From positions 1 to 64,000 of the forward strand of contig JABURQ010000011.1 in NCBI GenBank assembly GCA_014762625.1: DNA of 64,000 bases, written 5' to 3'. Below the pieces are notes generated by a model that was not told the origin of the DNA, did not search any database, and saw nothing but the letters and a program-made list of their open reading frames with translations. Positions 9,892 to 43,897 of this stretch are shown here, in pieces. How positions within the stretch are numbered: position 1 is the stretch's first letter; each line of letters opens with the position of its first letter. This DNA is from Planctomycetaceae bacterium (GTDB lineage Bacteria; Planctomycetota; Planctomycetia; Planctomycetales; Planctomycetaceae). The position numbers were made by a program, and so were the translations under genes.

Positions 9892-11169
9892 TCAATCGTG
9901 AATGTGGAACAGTTTCTTCAGAGCCGTCACCAGCCCCTCAGGCGTGCCGGAGTGTGACTCTTCGCGAAGTGTTTCCAGCGGCGGATGGAGCAATTTATTG
10001 ATGACCCGTCCGACCGAATTCTCGATCTGTTCCCGATCTTCTTCGGTGAGATGCGAAAGCTTGTTGAACAGGCGTCTTAATTCCTCTTCGCGGATCTCGT
10101 GCCATTGCGACCGTAATCGCTGAACCACCGGCCCCGTGGCCCGATGATGCAATTCCTGCATAAACAGGCTGGTCTCTTCCTCGATGATGGCGTTGGCCTT
10201 CTGGACTTCCCGGCTCCGTTGTTTGCGGTTCAAGTCGCACGTCGCTTCGAGGTCATCGATATTGTAGAGGAAGATATTGTCGTCGATATCGCCGACCGCG
10301 GTCGAGATGTCTCGAGGGGCTCCAAGATCGAGCAGAAAGACCTGTTTGTCTCCGGTGGCCCGGCGAATCGTCCGAAAACGGTCTTCCGTGAGGATCGGTT
10401 GGGTTGCACCGGTCGTACTCACGACGATGTCGGCCCGTTTGAGGCATTCATCAAGCTGATCCCAGGGATAAACTTCCCCGCCCCAGCTCATCGCCAGCAT
10501 CTCCGCTCGCTCCGTGCTGCGATTCACCACGATGATTTTGCGGGCTCCTTCCTCTTTCAGGTAGCGCAAGGTCTCCTCGGCCATCTCTCCGGCCCCGATG
10601 ACGAGTACCGTCTTATCGTCGAAGCGTTCGAAGATTCCTTTCGCGAAGTCGCCGACCGCCACCGAAGCGACCGAGACGCGCCCTTCCGAAAGTTTGGTTT
10701 CCGTGCGTACTCTTCCCGAAACCTTGATGGCTCGCTGGAACAGGGTATTGGTAAGAATTCCGCAGGCATTGTTCTCCTGTGCAATGCGGTACGCATCCTT
10801 CACCTGATTCACAATTTGAGACTCGCCGAGGACCATGCTGTCTACGGACGACGCCACCCGGAACAGGTGACGAACCGCGTCTTCGCCTTCCTCGGCCAGC
10901 AGATCGTCGAAGAAATCCGAGACCGGGATGTTATGGAACTCGGAAAAGAAGTGGGCCAACTGTTCGTGAGACGGATGCCGGTCCCCTTCATGGGCAGCGT
11001 AGACCTCAACACGATTGCACGTGGAGAGGACGACCAGCTCTGATTCCGGAAATGTCTGTTGCAGCTCCTGATAAGCTTCCTGCAGATGATCGGGAGACGA
11101 AAACGCCAGTTTTTCGCGGACCGCCACCGGAGCGGTATGGTAATTACAGAAGACGACCTGCAAGTTCAT
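9892..11169 (-). CDS. hemA: Glutamyl-tRNA reductase
   Basis: HemA reduces glutamyl-tRNA(Glu) with NADPH to glutamate-1-semialdehyde, the first step of C5 tetrapyrrole synthesis. The 425 residues include the active-site STCNRVE (nucleophile C51), GESQIVNQVKDAYR, the Rossmann motif VIGAGEMAEETLRYL (about 180-195) and STGATQPIL. The C-terminal dimerisation helices follow. It starts inside the last bases of the upstream membrane gene (ATGA overlap), so the two are translationally coupled. The upstream partner is a CcsA/HemX-like protein, so the pair combines heme supply and cytochrome assembly. Confidence 0.97.
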   Translation of the reverse strand: MNLQVVFCNYHTAPVAVREKLAFSSPDHLQEAYQELQQTFPESELVVLSTCNRVEVYAAHEGDRHPSHEQLAHFFSEFHNIPVSDFFDDLLAEEGEDAVRHLFRVASSVDSMVLGESQIVNQVKDAYRIAQENNACGILTNTLFQRAIKVSGRVRTETKLSEGRVSVASVAVGDFAKGIFERFDDKTVLVIGAGEMAEETLRYLKEEGARKIIVVNRSTERAEMLAMSWGGEVYPWDQLDECLKRADIVVSTTGATQPILTEDRFRTIRRATGDKQVFLLDLGAPRDISTAVGDIDDNIFLYNIDDLEATCDLNRKQRSREVQKANAIIEEETSLFMQELHHRATGPVVQRLRSQWHEIREEELRRLFNKLSHLTEEDREQIENSVGRVINKLLHPPLETLREESHSGTPEGLVTALKKLFHIHD

Positions 11170-37387: not shown

Positions 37388-37739
37388 GGGGGCGATCGGC
37401 TTCGACTGGATGACTGTAAGTTGAGGTGGCGTGTCGTGGTTGATCAGCCGGCCACGTAAAAAGCTGATCGAACAATAATTGCAAAACCTTCTTTGCAACT
37501 GGCTGCGTAACAACGCGGTCCCGGCTTAGGAATCCTCGCCTGAGGAGTCCGACTGTCGGTTGAAAAATCAGGCTGGCTTCTGTTCACTGCCCACCACGGC
37601 GGAAGCGAGATTCGTTGTGGGCTGGCTGATGGCGGCTTTGTTTATTGAGCCAAAATCAGTGAGATCAATCAATAAAATACACACGTAGAGGCTTCAGCCG
37701 AGGCATCACAGGACGCGGGTTCGATTCCCGCCGCCTCCA
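37388..37739 (+). ncRNA. ssrA: Transfer-messenger RNA (tmRNA), tag AKPSLQLAA
   Basis: The 5' end GGGGGCGATCGGCTTCGACTGG and the 3' end GCGGGTTCGATTCCCGCCGCCTCCA are the tRNA-like parts. The first seven bases pair with CGCCTCC near the 3' end. The resume codon and tag frame are at 37481-37510: GCA AAA CCT TCT TTG CAA CTG GCT GCG TAA, giving AKPSLQLAA, with the usual LAA end that ClpXP recognises. The CCA tail is not encoded in full after the discriminator A. tmRNA rescues stalled ribosomes with SmpB. The 3' end doubles as the attachment site of the downstream island and stays functional after insertion because the sequence is restored. Confidence 0.95.
37715..37739 (+). repeat. Attachment core, left copy (tmRNA 3' end)
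   Basis: The 25 bases from the T-arm to the discriminator base of ssrA. A copy with 21 of 25 bases identical stands at 45543-45567, and the last 13 bases recur exactly at 45718-45730. Tyrosine recombinases commonly use tRNA and tmRNA 3' ends in this way. Confidence 0.75.
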
Positions 37740-37877: not shown

Positions 37878-37950
37878 CTCTGGGCGGTCGTCGCTTTTCA
37901 CGACTACAATGCCCAAAACAGACAAGCATCTTAGGCGAGGACACGGGGCG

Positions 37951-38961
37951 ATGCCCACCTACAACAAGACTGTCAAACGGGGCAACGGCAAGCCAATCAC
38001 GCACTACGTCGGCAAAAACCGAAAAGGTGTACCGGAGAAATTCCGCCTCGGGTACGACCCTGCCGCAGCCCAGCGCAGGCTCGATCAGATTCAAGCGATT
38101 TGGGACCATTTGGAAATCTGGGTGAGTGAGGCCAAGGCCAACATCGAGATCAAGGGCAAGACGAAGCTCCGAACTTACTGGACCCAGCCGTACCTCAAAG
38201 CAGCCAAGGCAATCGCAAAGGGGGAACCGCCGACGTTGCCCAAGGGAGAGTACGAGCAACCAGAGCTATACCTGAAACGGCTTGGCCTGATCTCCGAAGC
38301 GAGTGGAACAAAGTTTGAGCCTGCGAATCCTGACGAGTACGAAACTGCCGTCTACTTGGTCAAGAAAACCGCTGATGAATCACGCAGCACGATTTCAGCG
38401 GCGGCGAATGTCCCGGCAGCTACCGGCCAGACCCTCAAGAATGCCATCGATGGTTACGAAGAATCGGTGAAAAGGCGTCATACCCAAGCAGACGGAGCAA
38501 TTGACGCTTGGGGCAAAGCACGGCTCGACCAGATGAGTACGATTCGCAACTACCTCAGCGACAAACGGTTCGGTGGTCAAAACTATCTTCGCCTTGATCT
38601 GGCCGAACTCACTTTCCAACGCTGCGATGAAATCTACGGCATTTTTCGGGGGCGGCCACTGACGTTTCTCAGCAAGCTGCGTAAGCGGATGGCAGACAAA
38701 TCCGCCAAGAACTACATCAAGGAACTCGGGAGCTTCTTCGACTGGCTCGATGGTGCAGATGGCTTTGACTGGATTCAGCCCCGTCGCTTTCACAAGATTT
38801 CTAAGACGCCTGACAAGCTCACAGCGCAAGAGCAATATGAACGGAGGCAGAAGAAACAGCAGAGCATCATCCCATCCTCCACAGCCGTGCCGATGACGTG
38901 GTGCCGTTCGAGGATAGTGAGGAACTCGTCACCAACAGCGGTCTGCCCGCCTCAGCTTTGA
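37951..38961 (+). pseudogene. Tyrosine recombinase (integrase), N-terminal part only
   Basis: Residues of about 1-300 from ATG 37951 (GAGGA 9 bases upstream; ATG 37909 is an alternative) resemble phage integrase N-terminal and core-binding domains: THYVGKNRKGVPEKF, then a helical region with KSAKNYIKELGSFFDWL typical of the SAM-like core-binding fold. The catalytic domain with R-HxxR-Y is missing. After about 38860 the frame runs into nonsense and stops at 38961, because a different coding sequence (a hydrolase C-terminus in another frame) begins there. I read this as a deletion that removed the recombinase C-terminal half. Confidence 0.75.
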
Positions 38962-39068
38962 TCGAAGTCGGAGACGACCACCGGCTCGCTGATCCAGAGC
39001 CGCTGGCGAAGATGTTGGAAGCGTGCTTGAAGGCACCCAATCACAGAACACTTGAGGACTACGACTGA
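38865..39068 (+). pseudogene. C-terminal remnant of an alpha/beta hydrolase
   Basis: In the frame starting at 38865 the translation contains ILHSRADDVVPFEDSEELV, then ALIEVGDDHRLADPEPLAKML and ends with TGA at 39066-39068. This is the normal end of alpha/beta hydrolases: the aspartate-bearing DDVVPF loop and the catalytic-histidine DHRL motif. There is no start codon and no N-terminal part; the upstream sequence is integrase in a different frame. It is a 67-codon fossil left by the same deletion that truncated the integrase. Confidence 0.7.
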
Positions 39069-39080
39069 ACGGAGTTTCGG

Positions 39081-39551
39081 ATGGACTTTGGGCAATCACC
39101 AGACCGCACAATTCCTCTCTTGGTCGTGACCCGAGCCGTAGACCCAAGCGAGCGAAACCCATTGCGGTTCCATCTGGATGACTTCCCGTTTGGTGGGGGT
39201 GTCTATGTAGTTCGATTTGCGAACAGAAGTGTTCAGCGGCTCGTCGGAGAGAGCGACGTTTTGCGGATCGGCCACACGGGAAACTTTCGTCAGCGATTCA
39301 ACAGTTATGGACCGACAGACGTGCTTGGCGAATTGAACCTCAACTTAGGCGAAGTTTTAGGAGGGAAGCGAAAGGATGCTGCGAATGTCGTGGTTGTCCA
39401 TGCGCTGATACGGTTCCTCAGCCCGCCGAATGAGGAAGAAGTCCTCGTGGACTTCTACTCCAAAGCCTCTGAGCAAGACTTCTTGTTGAAGTACGTTGAT
39501 CGGCACCTTGAAACGCCACCGTTGAATTTCTCCCTCAAGGGACGTGCGTAA
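39081..39551 (+). CDS. GIY-YIG-like nuclease-fold protein
   Basis: 156 residues; GGAG lies 8-10 bases before ATG 39081. The segment GGVYVVRFANRS followed by VLRIGHTGNFRQRFNSY corresponds to the GIY...YIG core (G-V-Y and R-I-G) with the downstream arginine. The rest shows no second domain. GIY-YIG proteins cut DNA in repair, restriction or homing, but the tyrosines vary here and activity is uncertain. It follows the hydrolase remnant by 12 bases. Confidence 0.55.
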   Translation: MDFGQSPDRTIPLLVVTRAVDPSERNPLRFHLDDFPFGGGVYVVRFANRSVQRLVGESDVLRIGHTGNFRQRFNSYGPTDVLGELNLNLGEVLGGKRKDAANVVVVHALIRFLSPPNEEEVLVDFYSKASEQDFLLKYVDRHLETPPLNFSLKGRA

Positions 39552-39630
39552 ACTGCGTCGAGAGGCCGTTGCCGTGATGGTTGGACCTGCCGGGAGACAC
39601 TCCGCTGTTCCAGCTAAACGGAAACGCAGT

Positions 39631-41142
39631 TCAAATGCCATCGGATCGCAATCCACCTTCAACCCGCACCACTCCATCTGTATGTGCAATCGCAGTCACA
39701 TGTCCATCCTGCGACACTACGAAGACGAATGAATCGAGTTCTCGCATTGCGAATGACAAAGATGACTGATGTCGAGAGCCTTTGTTCTTGAGGATGCTGG
39801 CATATTCAATGGTGTCATCATTGCCATCCACGAATGTAATGCTTGATTCATCAACTGCCGCCTTATCAATGATTGCACCGAACCCGTGAAGTCTGAAATC
39901 AGTTCCCAACACTATTGCGCCATCGGTGCCAGCGAGGTATGCAGTCTCCCGGACGGACTCCCGCAAGGCGGCACCTTGCAGCAGCAACGGTAGGCCGGGC
40001 GAGTGCGACGGAGACACACGAGTTGTTCCATAACCATCCTCATACGCAGTCTCCCAATATCGAGTGACAGCTTTTTGCAGCCGTGTACTCTCGGTCGGAT
40101 ACTTGTAGGACAATGTTGTGACGTCATGCCGGTTGCTAAAGATCAAGATTCCGCCATGCCCAAGTTGAGACATGCGCCACACCAGTTCAGCAACTACCAA
40201 CTCAGGTTTGCAGTCTGCGGCACTTTCTCTTTGGAGACTCGTGCGGAGCATTCCGATTATTTCTTGAGACTTATCCTTCGGCAGGCGACGTTCGATGTCC
40301 TTCTCTACCTTCTTTCGGAACTCATCTCCCAAGAGGTCTGCAATTTGCGCATTTAGTATTCCGGCCAGTATTTCCAATGACTTGCTTTTCAGAAGTGATT
40401 GTGAGGCAATCACTCTACCGGCTTTGTACGACAGCATCCCGGTGTCACAGAGTACATCGATGTTTCCCGGACCACGGACTGCCACTTGGAACCGGAATGT
40501 TCTTTTCTTCTCGTGATGCTGGGCGACGAACGTGTCCAAATGGGCGGAACGTGATCGACCGATCCCTACGATTACAGGCTGATTGTTGTGAGCCTCTATT
40601 GCGAGGCTACAGTTGTCCGACACCGCATGAGCGAGTTTGGCTATTGCAGTGGCTTCGGCAGGAATGGGTGGATGAAAGAAGCGGGGCTGATGTGCGTGGC
40701 CTAGCCCCTCATCAGTGGCAGTGTCCTTCGATGCGGCAATGTGCAGCGTAACTTGTGGCAACCGGCCCTCATCGCCAATCATGCTTGCGTAATAACACTC
40801 TGCGATGAGCTTTGCAGCTACTTCGTTCGACGGCAGCGACATCGAAAAGACCGAACCAAGCAGGCTGCGCTCTGTTGCTGACCTCATCCTGTCGAGAAGT
40901 GGCGTTGTTTGTGCTATGAAGTCACCGATGTGTGTCTTAGTCGAGACGACTTCGACTGTAGTATCGGAGCTATTACTGCCGGACTTGGCGTTGTCCTTTT
41001 GTGTGTCCTCGGTCTTATTGCCAAGAGTTTTTGAACTTCCTTTCTGCTTGCGGTCTTTCTTTTTGTCCTTCTTAGACCTTGCCTTGTCCTTATCGTGTTT
41101 CTTCTGGCCGCCTTTGCCAGCCTTACCTTTTCGCCTTGGCAT
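39631..41142 (-). CDS. DisA_N/DAC-like nucleotide-binding domain protein with lysine-rich N-terminus
   Basis: 503 residues. The first 60 are extremely basic (KKHDKDKARSKKDKKKDRKQK), suggesting nucleic acid or ribosome binding. A mixed middle region follows. The last 110 residues resemble the diadenylate cyclase fold: GTDGAIVLGTDF (DGA at 407-409), HGFGAII, GSRHQSS (RH at 457-458) and FVFVVSQDGHV. DGA and RHxS are the two signature motifs of c-di-AMP synthases of the DisA_N family. It might synthesise or merely sense a nucleotide; divergent DAC-like sensor domains are known. It lies 76 bases downstream of a sigma-like gene on the same strand, and the two may be one operon. Confidence 0.6.
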   Translation of the reverse strand: MPRRKGKAGKGGQKKHDKDKARSKKDKKKDRKQKGSSKTLGNKTEDTQKDNAKSGSNSSDTTVEVVSTKTHIGDFIAQTTPLLDRMRSATERSLLGSVFSMSLPSNEVAAKLIAECYYASMIGDEGRLPQVTLHIAASKDTATDEGLGHAHQPRFFHPPIPAEATAIAKLAHAVSDNCSLAIEAHNNQPVIVGIGRSRSAHLDTFVAQHHEKKRTFRFQVAVRGPGNIDVLCDTGMLSYKAGRVIASQSLLKSKSLEILAGILNAQIADLLGDEFRKKVEKDIERRLPKDKSQEIIGMLRTSLQRESAADCKPELVVAELVWRMSQLGHGGILIFSNRHDVTTLSYKYPTESTRLQKAVTRYWETAYEDGYGTTRVSPSHSPGLPLLLQGAALRESVRETAYLAGTDGAIVLGTDFRLHGFGAIIDKAAVDESSITFVDGNDDTIEYASILKNKGSRHQSSLSFAMRELDSFVFVVSQDGHVTAIAHTDGVVRVEGGLRSDGI

Positions 41143-41218
41143 GTTTGTAAATCCGAATGTGGACTGAGAGCAAGCTACCGAAGGTCTAGCCGACTTTGGC
41201 TCATTTCATGCACGGAAG

Positions 41219-42004
41219 CTAGTTGTCGTTTATTCTAAACTCCTTCTGGCTCATCTTCACCCCAAACCTTTTCCCCACCGTTTCAGCTTCCTCCTCCATT
41301 GCCCGCCGAACCAGCGCAAGGAACTCCGGGTCGCTTGCCCCGAACTCTTCCGCAGTCCGCTTGATGGCCTGCACCACCTTTTTGATTTTGTAGCTCGTCT
41401 CCAAGCCGGGCTGCCCGATCAACGATTTTGTTTCCCCGCCCGCCAGCCGCTCGTCGAATACATCGAGCGCTGCCTGCCCGTGCTTTTCCAGTAGGAACTC
41501 TCTGAACGCTTGGATGAGTGTCTCGGACTGCGACTGCCGAACCGGAACGTCCATCGCAGCTTCTCCTCCCCCGTGCATCGAGACGGCTGGGATTCTCTTT
41601 CTTCTCGTCATCCGTGCCGCACGATGATTGAGCAGAGCGTTGCGCACGCTCAGCTTGAACCTCGCCATGATGGGCTGGCCGCTCCAGCCTGAGAACAGCG
41701 TGCCGGGCGAAACGAGCAAGCGGACGATGATGTCGTGGACGACATTATCGAGATCATGCTCTTTCACGCCCAACCGTCTAGCTGCGGCATCTACGTAGCC
41801 GATCCAGTCCATTTCTTGAGCTTGCTGTAGCTCTTTTTTTGTTTCCGGGGCGTCTGTTCGGGCGATGAGCTTCTCGACCTGCGCATTCATCAGGGCATTC
41901 AACTCGCCACGGGGAAACTCTCCACTGACCTCCCACAATCGGAGCAGAGATTCGAGTTCGTTGTTTTGGGCGACGAGCCAGTCGTGAAAGTGTTTCCAAG
42001 CCAT
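41219..42004 (-). CDS. Sigma-70-family-like regulator
   Basis: 261 residues from ATG 42004 (a TTG at 42031 is an alternative). Residues about 80-150 look like sigma region 2: DLDNVVHDIIVRLL, then RNALLNHRAARMTRRKR, the basic end typical of ECF factors. Residues about 180-220 (VFDERLAGGETKSLIG...YKIKKVVQAIK) may form a region 4 helix-turn-helix. The spacer is longer than in ordinary ECF factors, and there is an extra C-terminal tail. It lies in the island, upstream of the DAC-like gene on the same strand, and is divergent from the gene at 42160. The 155-base gap between them should hold both promoters. Confidence 0.5.
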   Translation of the reverse strand: MAWKHFHDWLVAQNNELESLLRLWEVSGEFPRGELNALMNAQVEKLIARTDAPETKKELQQAQEMDWIGYVDAAARRLGVKEHDLDNVVHDIIVRLLVSPGTLFSGWSGQPIMARFKLSVRNALLNHRAARMTRRKRIPAVSMHGGGEAAMDVPVRQSQSETLIQAFREFLLEKHGQAALDVFDERLAGGETKSLIGQPGLETSYKIKKVVQAIKRTAEEFGASDPEFLALVRRAMEEEAETVGKRFGVKMSQKEFRINDN

Positions 42005-42159
42005 GTGAGTATGTAGTCCGCTCGCCTTCAAATCCCTTCGCTATCCCATCGAAACGGCCTGCTGCGCAGCGACCGATTGAGAGGGAGAAAAGGGGAGAGA
42101 AAAGCAGCCCTCCAACTGCGTCCACACGGTTCTTCTTTTATAGAAAGGAGAACCAATCA

Positions 42160-42606
42160 ATGCTCAACACTCTCAAATCGCTCGTTTCCAAATCTTGGAA
42201 AAACAACAAGCCCGACCTTCAACCGGGCAAGCACCACATCGACGAGGAGTTCCTCGTTCGTGTCCACGGCACGGTCGAGAAGCTCGACGATGAATTCGCT
42301 GCTCCGACCGTGAGCATCCCTCTGATCCCGGCGCTGGCCTTTCTCTTCGACCGGCTCGGTATGGATCGTGACGAGGCACTCATTGTCCTTCGTGACGCTC
42401 TCAAGCAAGCGATGAAGAAGGGCGAGAAGGAAGACGCCGCCATCACTGCTCGCATGTCCGACGTGACGGACGTTGTGAAGGCCGTCCGCAAGGACTTGAT
42501 CGGCCAGCTTCCTCCAATGCGCCGTGCTGGGAAAGTCATCACCAACGATCTTCAAGTCGAGTTGGTGCCGGTGGCTGCTGACGAACGCACTCGCATCGCC
42601 GCATAG
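42160..42606 (+). CDS. Island protein of unknown function, 148 aa
   Basis: Not recognised. A strong ribosome binding site (AAAGGAG, 42144-42150) precedes ATG 42160. The protein begins with a basic N-terminus (LVSKSWKNNKPDL), has a hydrophobic helix (SIPLIPALAFLFDRLG) and an alpha-helical second half rich in charged residues, without cysteines or metal motifs. The good initiation site and its place next to the divergent sigma-like gene suggest that it is expressed. Confidence 0.65.
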   Translation: MLNTLKSLVSKSWKNNKPDLQPGKHHIDEEFLVRVHGTVEKLDDEFAAPTVSIPLIPALAFLFDRLGMDRDEALIVLRDALKQAMKKGEKEDAAITARMSDVTDVVKAVRKDLIGQLPPMRRAGKVITNDLQVELVPVAADERTRIAA

Positions 42607-42732
42607 GTTGAGCAGCCCGGTTCATTCACGGATGGGTGAGCCGGGCATTGTTTCTTCGCCTTCGCCGCTCACGCCACTTGTACTTCTACCTGACGACACA
42701 ACAAAGCAACTTGCAAATGAAAGCAGTAACCG

Positions 42733-43212
42733 ATGCCCAGCAATGATCTACGTCGGAAGATGACCGAAACAATTGTCACCGCCATCGAAAACGGTGTCAG
42801 GCCGTGGAAACGGCCTTGGTCGCTTTCGCCCAACAGCGGAAGACCGGCAAATGTCGTTTCAAAGAATGCTTACAGCGGCGCAAATCCGCTTCTTCTTGAA
42901 GTTCACCGGCAACAGCAACGAGAACTAGGCCACAATCTTGACAGCCGTTGGTATGGCACGTTTCGCCAATGGGCTGACCTTGGCATGTCTGTAAAGAAGC
43001 GACCCGAGAACGTGAAGCCCGGTGAGTGGGGCGCTCGCATCGTGTTCTATCAGCCAAAGAGGATGGCACGATTATCTTCATTGATGAAGCGGCGGAGTTA
43101 CGTGACAAATCTTTGCAGGTTGCTCTCTACTTGGCTCTCGACCAAAGGAAGATTCTGCTCAATGGTCAAAAGAAAGGCACGTCACCAATCAGCATCCCCA
43201 TTGCCGACGTGA
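42733..43212 (+). pseudogene. ArdC-like ssDNA-binding protein, N-terminal fragment
   Basis: Residues 1-109 fit the ArdC N-terminal domain (DUF1738): TETIVTAIENGVRPWKRPW, GRPANVVSKNAYSGANPLLL, WYGTFRQWADLGMSVKK and GARIVFYQPK. Full-length proteins carry on into a longer domain or peptidase; here the frame leaves homology at about 43060 and continues as random sequence to 43212. A RuvB-like sequence starts at the same point in another frame. ArdC proteins protect or prime incoming DNA in plasmids and conjugative elements. Confidence 0.7.
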
Positions 43213-43589
43213 CCTTGCTGCTGGCGACCACCGACGAATACGAGTTGCTCCAGCCGCTTCGGGAAGGTGACGAGTGGATCAGCACGCATCCGATCTGCGT
43301 GCTGTGGACGGACAAGTTCGACGACCTCTCCCGGTCCCGAAGCCTCGAACCCATGCAGGTGAATGAGACGTTACGGACCTTGGCAGCACAGCTTGCTGGG
43401 GTCATGCGTGAAATCTGTGACGAGGCCAACCGGGACGGTCACGGCACAGACTGGCGAAACCAGCACCCTCGGGTGCAAGAGATCGTGCGTAAGCTCGTGG
43501 CTGCTACGGGGTCGAGAGAAGGCATGAACGTGTTTGAAGCATTTGAAAAATGCGAGCAACTGGCTCGCCAACAATCCATTGAGGAGTAA
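43026..43589 (+). CDS. Chimeric frame: RuvB-like AAA core segment joined to an unknown C-terminal domain
   Basis: The frame from GTG 43026 encodes about 12 residues of out-of-frame ArdC sequence, then a segment like the middle of RuvB: GTIIFIDEAAEL (Walker B) and VTLLLATTDEYELLQPLR (sensor 1). There is no Walker A, sensor 2 or DNA-binding wing, so it cannot be an active helicase. After LQPLRE it changes to a helical domain beginning EGDEWISTHPICVLWTDKF that I do not recognise. That part runs in frame to 43589. I take it as two successive deletion joints, the second keeping the frame. Whether it is translated is unclear; the next gene starts 2 bases after it. Confidence 0.55.
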   Translation: MGRSHRVLSAKEDGTIIFIDEAAELRDKSLQVALYLALDQRKILLNGQKKGTSPISIPIADVTLLLATTDEYELLQPLREGDEWISTHPICVLWTDKFDDLSRSRSLEPMQVNETLRTLAAQLAGVMREICDEANRDGHGTDWRNQHPRVQEIVRKLVAATGSREGMNVFEAFEKCEQLARQQSIEE

Positions 43590-43591
43590 GC

Positions 43592-43897
43592 GTGATTGAC
43601 GTGAATAAGCCGAAATTCAGCTTGGGGAAGGTAGTCGCCACGACGCTCGCATTGGAAGCTCTGAACGAGTCCAACCAGTCTCCGTGGGAATTCATCTCCC
43701 GACATGCGAGTGGTGATTGGGGCGAAGAGCTTTGTGACGAAGATCGAGAACTCAACGAACAGGCGTTGAGCGATGGCTCTCGGCTTCTCAGCGCCTACGT
43801 GACCAAATCGAATCAGAAAGTCTGGGTGATAACCGAGGCTGAGGACGACAGTGGCAAGCGGGCAGCGACGACGGTGTTGCTGCCGGAAGAATACTGA
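43592..43897 (+). CDS. Small conserved plasmid/island protein, 101 aa
   Basis: GAGGAG precedes a GTG start at 43592. The sequence KFSLGKVVATTLALEAL, RHASGDWGEELCDEDRELNEQAL, RLLSAYVTKSNQKVWVITEAED and the end TTVLLPEEY follow the pattern of a widespread short protein of plasmids and integrative elements. No function has been established that I know of. It begins a tight row of small genes. Confidence 0.75.
   Translation: MIDVNKPKFSLGKVVATTLALEALNESNQSPWEFISRHASGDWGEELCDEDRELNEQALSDGSRLLSAYVTKSNQKVWVITEAEDDSGKRAATTVLLPEEY

Follow-up and report, generated by a model that had tools for sequence, protein, structure and literature searches.

Two intact genes in an otherwise eroded stretch of a planctomycete genome raise the question of whether a sigma factor and a cyclase-like nucleotide protein have been brought together as a functional pair. 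The window analyzed, 64,000 nucleotides of contig JABURQ010000011.1 from a Planctomycetaceae bacterium (assembly GCA_014762625.1), had received a first-pass annotation that proposed such a two-gene system. The arrangement itself is as described there: P0001 occupies 503 codons (positions 39631 to 41142) and P0002 261 codons (41219 to 42004), both on the minus strand, with 76 bases between them. The longest stop-free stretch at this locus measures 524 codons, a length that 500 mononucleotide shuffles did not approach (241 at the highest). The 261 codons of P0002 run from an ATG, and an in-frame TTG start would extend the gene to 41219 to 42031 (270 codons). Our analysis recasts the proposed system as a cargo gene and a probably unrelated neighbor. 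From sequence comparison we consider it moderately likely that P0001 encodes an accessory, sensor-gated DACNV-DAC diadenylate cyclase carried as cargo of a decaying island next to ssrA.

The domain make-up of P0001 was derived from its reading frame, Pfam matches and alignments. The protein begins with a lysine-rich segment (18 lysines in residues 1 to 62), which places the "lysine-rich tail" of the first-pass annotation at the opposite end, the N-terminus. A DACNV domain follows at residues 102 to 194 (PF21751, 45 bits against a curated cut-off of 27); Pfam enters this family as "Probable sensor domain DACNV". The DAC-like C-terminal domain is marked by the motifs HGG (329 to 331), DGA (407 to 409), GSRHQSS (455 to 461) and VSQDG (476 to 480), and its Pfam DAC match (PF02457, residues 434 to 486) scores 18.2 bits, below the cut-off of 27. 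Searches of NCBIfam with P0001, and of the PDB with P0001 as a single sequence, gave no match. An AlphaFold2 model built from two sequences reached a pLDDT of 37.2, too poor for fold searching. Two further proteins, a paralogue encoded in the same genome and the closest relative of P0001, likewise score above the DACNV cut-off in Pfam. The domain name reportedly goes back to Galperin's census of DACs (J Bacteriol, 2023). The DACNV domain is already catalogued in Pfam, and P0001 belongs to a known, little-studied kind of protein.

Matches to P0001 occurred in 15 of 294 genomes of the phylum and 26 of 170 of the family, own genome included; both counts still hold one match (L043, genome G194) judged unrelated, which had neither the DG nor the RH motif in the first alignment and was left out of our alignment of 17 DACNV-DACs (A2). 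The DACNV domain was detected in 20 of the 294 genomes and in none of 14 controls. The host genome encodes a second DACNV-DAC (G000:C207) as well as a canonical DAC (G000:C151), the latter being the only protein listed by a PF02457 search of that genome; PF02457 scored above cut-off in 95 of the 101 family genomes searched. Neither of two same-genus genomes had a P0001 match. P0001 is closest to a 400 aa protein encoded on a 5.4 kb contig (JALRDR010000291.1) of Planctomycetaceae MAG JM.4, recorded twice in our searches as L080 and L117. It is about 26 to 35% identical to P0001 depending on the alignment (33% in a global alignment), and its neighbors are a serine recombinase gene (Pfam Resolvase and Recombinase) and a DUF2924 gene. 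Identity of P0001 to the other 16 members of A2 is 19 to 22%. In a tree of 36 rows, P0001 and L080 formed one clade (100/97), joined by long branches (1.67 and 1.68) that the tree tool warns may be meeting as such. Like other DACNV-DAC proteins, P0001 joins a DACNV domain that scores above its cut-off to a DAC-like domain behind it, with HGG, DG, G-RH and SQD conserved; it differs from them in being island-borne and in its lysine-rich N-terminus of about 62 residues, which L080 lacks. Plasmid and phage searches with P0001 gave no match, and no relative was confirmed in IMG/VR for the P0001-L080 alignment, P0002, the own-genome paralogue or a 148 aa protein of the island backbone. A scan of genome contigs with P0001 alone found no relative, and the same scan with the two-sequence alignment returned a single match, L117, on a contig stretch identical to L080. 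These scans seed from short patterns, which distant relatives may escape.

The claim that the C-terminal domain is DAC-like is upheld by the weak Pfam match together with family-profile matches to PDB entries and to canonical DACs, and the predicted kinship is firmer for the family profile than for P0001 alone. When compared once with seven aligned canonical DACs from planctomycetes, the DACNV-DAC profile scored 95.3% (E 2.3e-8), in an alignment that begins at residue 405 and pairs DGA with DGA and G-RH with G-RH. The seven proteins (alignment A6) came from 20 loci and were chosen by a motif expression, a first version of which caught only two, so that the choice favors motif agreement. Against the PDB, at E up to 10, the profile retrieved 21 sequences, 19 of them diadenylate cyclases (best E 0.0024, none at or below 0.001); the other two were a chaperonin and M64R. 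The 19 include 2fb5, entered as a hypothetical protein and identified in a passage of PMC8573169 as a CdaS homologue.

Ten positions are invariant in all 17 aligned DACNV-DACs: S120, E125, G330, D407, G408, G455, R457, H458, S477 and D479 in P0001 numbering. The DGA and RHxS motifs noted earlier are indeed present (D407 to A409 and R457 to S460), and both are kept in the closest relative. Passages of PMC7288161 place Asp71, Arg103, His104 and Ser122 in the site of Listeria CdaA; the putative catalytic residues D407, R457, H458 and S477 correspond to these as mapped here by motif order. The same source gives the DAC signature as DGAhh, GxRHRxA and (V/I)SEE, and active-site motifs are described in passages elsewhere as DGA with GXRHRXA (PMC12974146) or DGA with RHR (PMC8573169). 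Measured against the signature so given, P0001 has the first motif as DGAIV (407 to 411), keeps G, R and H of the second in GSRHQSS with the second R and the A substituted, and retains the Ser plus an acid of the third in VSQD. Relative to the CdaA, DisA and CdaS proteins of PF02457, then, P0001 aligns at DGA, at RH and at the Ser of SEE, whereas it scores under the family cut-off and reads RHQ for RHR and VSQD for VSEE. An HGGILIF segment (329 to 335) resembles the GALI motif by eye and falls outside the profile alignment; about 75 residues separate HGG from DGA in P0001, against about 40 from GALI to DGA in the canonical set.

These departures, with the Pfam DAC score under cut-off and the long branch of P0001, could point to a pseudo-cyclase, a nucleotide sensor whose DAC-like domain would bind ATP, c-di-AMP or another nucleotide without making any and whose lysine-rich end would contact DNA or RNA. 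We consider this rather unlikely, as all 17 members retain these Asp, Arg, His and Ser residues and the change from Glu to Asp leaves an acidic residue at what a passage of PMC7288161 numbers Glu124. Moreover, canonical planctomycete DACs that exceed the PF02457 cut-off include proteins with GARHQ or GARHW and with VSQS or VSES; because they vary at the same second R and SEE positions, the departures of P0001 alone do not imply lost activity.

The genomic setting supports an earlier description of the locus as part of a mobile island with decayed neighbors. DNA synteny with two same-genus genomes stops at the tmRNA gene ssrA (37388 to 37739, plus strand) or no more than about 55 bases beyond it. 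Beyond ssrA, and likewise on the plus strand, lie an ORF that is recombinase-like by eye only and has no Pfam integrase match (37909 to 38961) and a short frame without a Pfam match (38841 to 39065), which has matching stretches in two related islands (75% identity over 51 aa in one, 73% over 56 aa in the other). Past P0001 and P0002, the plus strand continues with three backbone features: a 148 aa gene of unassigned function (42160 to 42606); a shortened ArdC-like gene (42733 to 43212), identified by Pfam and island comparison, with 159 codons versus 340 and 298 in the matching ORFs of two related islands; and a decayed RuvB/AAA-like fragment in another frame (43026 to 43589; RuvB_N 23.8 bits, cut-off 27). 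Of 169 other family genomes, two (G439 and G334) hold a relative of the 148 aa gene, which is 51% identical to these copies. The 19.9 kb stretches retrieved around them both include a relative of ArdC together with a counterpart of the frame 38841 to 39065, and that of G439 additionally contains a RuvB-like match and a match to 43583 to 43894, with a carbonic anhydrase gene near the backbone. Neither stretch has a P0001 or sigma-like match; G439 carries a DACNV-DAC (L095) elsewhere in its genome. Since the backbone is shared and the accompanying genes are not, and since ArdC is shortened and RuvB reduced to a fragment, P0001 and P0002 look like cargo in a decayed element. Set against the cargo reading of P0001 is its third-position GC (0.54), which is nearer to that of two flanking host genes (0.53 each) than to that of the backbone gene at 42160 to 42606 (0.71).

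The visible decay of the island and the lack of a P0001 match in the two same-genus genomes searched would also suit a passenger, that is, an acquired gene without present function whose own decay is yet to come. Retention of the family-invariant residues and of a 503-codon frame makes this improbable, and we prefer the reading of P0001 as a cargo-borne cyclase.

Several further observations concern the island and its site. Together, L122, L123 and window positions 38841 to 43897 make up a planctomycete island family with a common 148 to 150 aa protein, ArdC and the short frame, beside which the genes differ; a RuvB-like gene occurs in the window and L122. A 156 aa ORF on the plus strand (39081 to 39551) converges on P0001 and is GIY-YIG nuclease-like by eye, with no Pfam match at E up to 1. 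A second copy of the tmRNA 3' end (att) was found neither in the window nor elsewhere in the genome, which leaves the island without fixed borders. At G335:C178:8410-8433, a same-genus genome carries 24 bases identical to that end (window 37716 to 37739), possibly an attachment-site remnant. In a stretch from a same-genus genome (L105), the minus strand after position 10532, following the tmRNA gene, resembles the end of a tyrosine recombinase by eye, which suggests that ssrA is a repeated insertion site.

P0002 (261 aa, with a region 2-like part at about residues 40 to 137) bears out its "sigma-70-like" label in part: it is ECF-sigma-like by sequence, and Pfam finds no sigma domain in it, with no sigma family, region 2 or region 4, at E up to 1. 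Matches to P0002 were found in two genomes besides its own among the 294, and both proteins carry Pfam Sigma70_r2. Searching with phmmer from one Pfam-confirmed ECF protein recovers P0002 (E 3.5e-7), and a single BLASTP comparison with an ECF protein gave E 4e-6. A Foldseek search with the predicted structure (pLDDT 67.3) found nothing at E up to 0.001. Among the 50 rows listed by VIA-align for this model, 15 were sigma factors or their region 2 (Z 5.0 to 6.1), aligned to the part of P0002 ending near residue 136 at Z values that helical matches commonly reach; the best listed row was an unrelated protein (Z 8.0), and none of the 50 placed a sigma region 4 on the C-terminal half. A plasmid search with P0002 gave no match. 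P0002 resembles ECF sigma factors in its phmmer kinship, and may do so in region 2 by the sigma rows of the structure list; it differs from them in having no Pfam sigma domain; we call it ECF-like, and not an ECF member, on these comparisons.

Whether P0001 and P0002 belong together was addressed through the neighborhoods of other DACNV-DAC genes. Forty stretches around DACNV-DAC matches were fetched and 36 kept for neighbor counts, leaving out L043, L053 (1073 aa frame), L084 and L091 (109 and 96 aa frames); L056, with a TAG inside its frame, was counted among the 36 and kept out of the tree. The neighbor sample excludes DACNV matches in G134 and G245, the match in G405 and a second match in G361. 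It comprises 68 immediate neighbors, one each being missing at L049, L046, L058 and L086 where the stretch ends near the gene; all are mechanically called frames rather than the output of gene prediction, and those in high-GC contigs include doubtful ones. No relative of P0002 was found in the 40 stretches by phmmer at E up to 1. A local sigma profile located a sigma-like frame in 5 of the 36 loci, at a distance of some 1.7 to 6 kb and in no case adjacent to the DAC gene. Pfam assigned 89 families to the 68 neighbors, and none of the 25 commonest is a sigma family; a sigma domain in one neighbor could escape that tally, a gap that the local profile covers. One candidate, L042 6833-7693, directly upstream of the L042 DAC gene, was a weak second-round hit (E 0.00086) that we judged to be profile drift; if real, it would raise the adjacent cases to 1 of 36. 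The 5.4 kb contig of L080 has no sigma-like gene. Neighbors varied across the loci examined, and none was a partner common to the whole DACNV-DAC family.

Base composition also separates the two genes. The third-position GC of P0002 is 0.70, and that of the ORFs at 37909 to 38860 and 39081 to 39551 is 0.64 and 0.59; the difference between P0001 and P0002 points, weakly, to separate histories. The first-pass annotation had suggested a defense or stress-sensing unit, which finds no direct support here; no PADLOC model matches either protein (0 families at E up to 1). A sigma-factor-controlled nucleotide signaling unit serving defense or stress sensing on mobile islands would account for the shared strand, the 76-base gap and two frames left open amid broken neighbors, and a second recombinase-linked relative of P0001 does exist. 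Set against the 36 other loci, none with a clear adjacent sigma-like gene, the sigma-free L080 contig and backbone-sharing stretches, the difference in GC and the PADLOC result, we find such a unit very unlikely. The pair did not co-occur elsewhere in the sample examined, and P0002 looks like a chance neighbor of P0001, not half of a new two-gene system.

As an accessory cyclase, P0001 would work through its DACNV domain, which may sense a ligand and gate the DAC domain. The latter would pair head-to-head and condense two ATP to c-di-AMP or a related nucleotide, a product predicted to add to, or divert, the pool from the canonical DAC of the host. Binding of nucleic acid or of a partner is the probable role of the lysine-rich N-terminus. 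P0002 would be an ECF-like regulator that came to lie beside P0001 through cargo assembly, and its role toward P0001 may go no further than aiding transcription. A bolder proposal, which we regard as a long shot, is that a DACNV-DAC lineage moved onto mobile elements (P0001 and L117) and protects the element or its host, with DACNV sensing an infection or stress cue and DAC making a c-di-AMP-type signal. If true, a defense or element-regulation pathway would rest on a DAC where CBASS uses CD-NTases. By title and abstract start, we found no report of DAC-based defense among papers that mention c-di-AMP, anti-phage and diadenylate cyclase together, and by title nothing on the DACNV-DAC family among papers on diadenylate cyclase in planctomycetes, most subscription papers falling outside both searches; DACNV by name appeared in no paper in the full text of the open-licence PMC literature. 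A planctomycete that combines a single canonical DAC with two DACNV-DACs, one of them island-borne, offers a testable case that bears on the movement of accessory c-di-AMP-type signaling between genomes.

Other branches of the DACNV-DAC family have recurrent neighbors of their own. Three loci that belong to one family (f29) and are related to each other carry, just upstream on the strand of the DACNV-DAC, related genes of about 1,100 aa (L046:1446-4733, L048:3955-7437 and L049:1455-4766), and the L048 copy matches PPC and He_PIG under the Pfam cut-offs. At 5 of the 36 loci, the directly downstream same-strand gene belongs to one family, with gaps of -19 to 39 bases (L040:9121-10758, L041:9125-10774, L042:9157-10812, L095:8014-9651 and L082:6047-7735), and these five DACNV-DAC loci are all the members of one clade (100/99). 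The L041 gene encodes a cyclic-nucleotide-binding domain fused to a pyridine nucleotide-disulfide oxidoreductase, domains that occur together in 5 of the 68 neighbors, and this downstream family is a candidate conserved partner for a DACNV-DAC.
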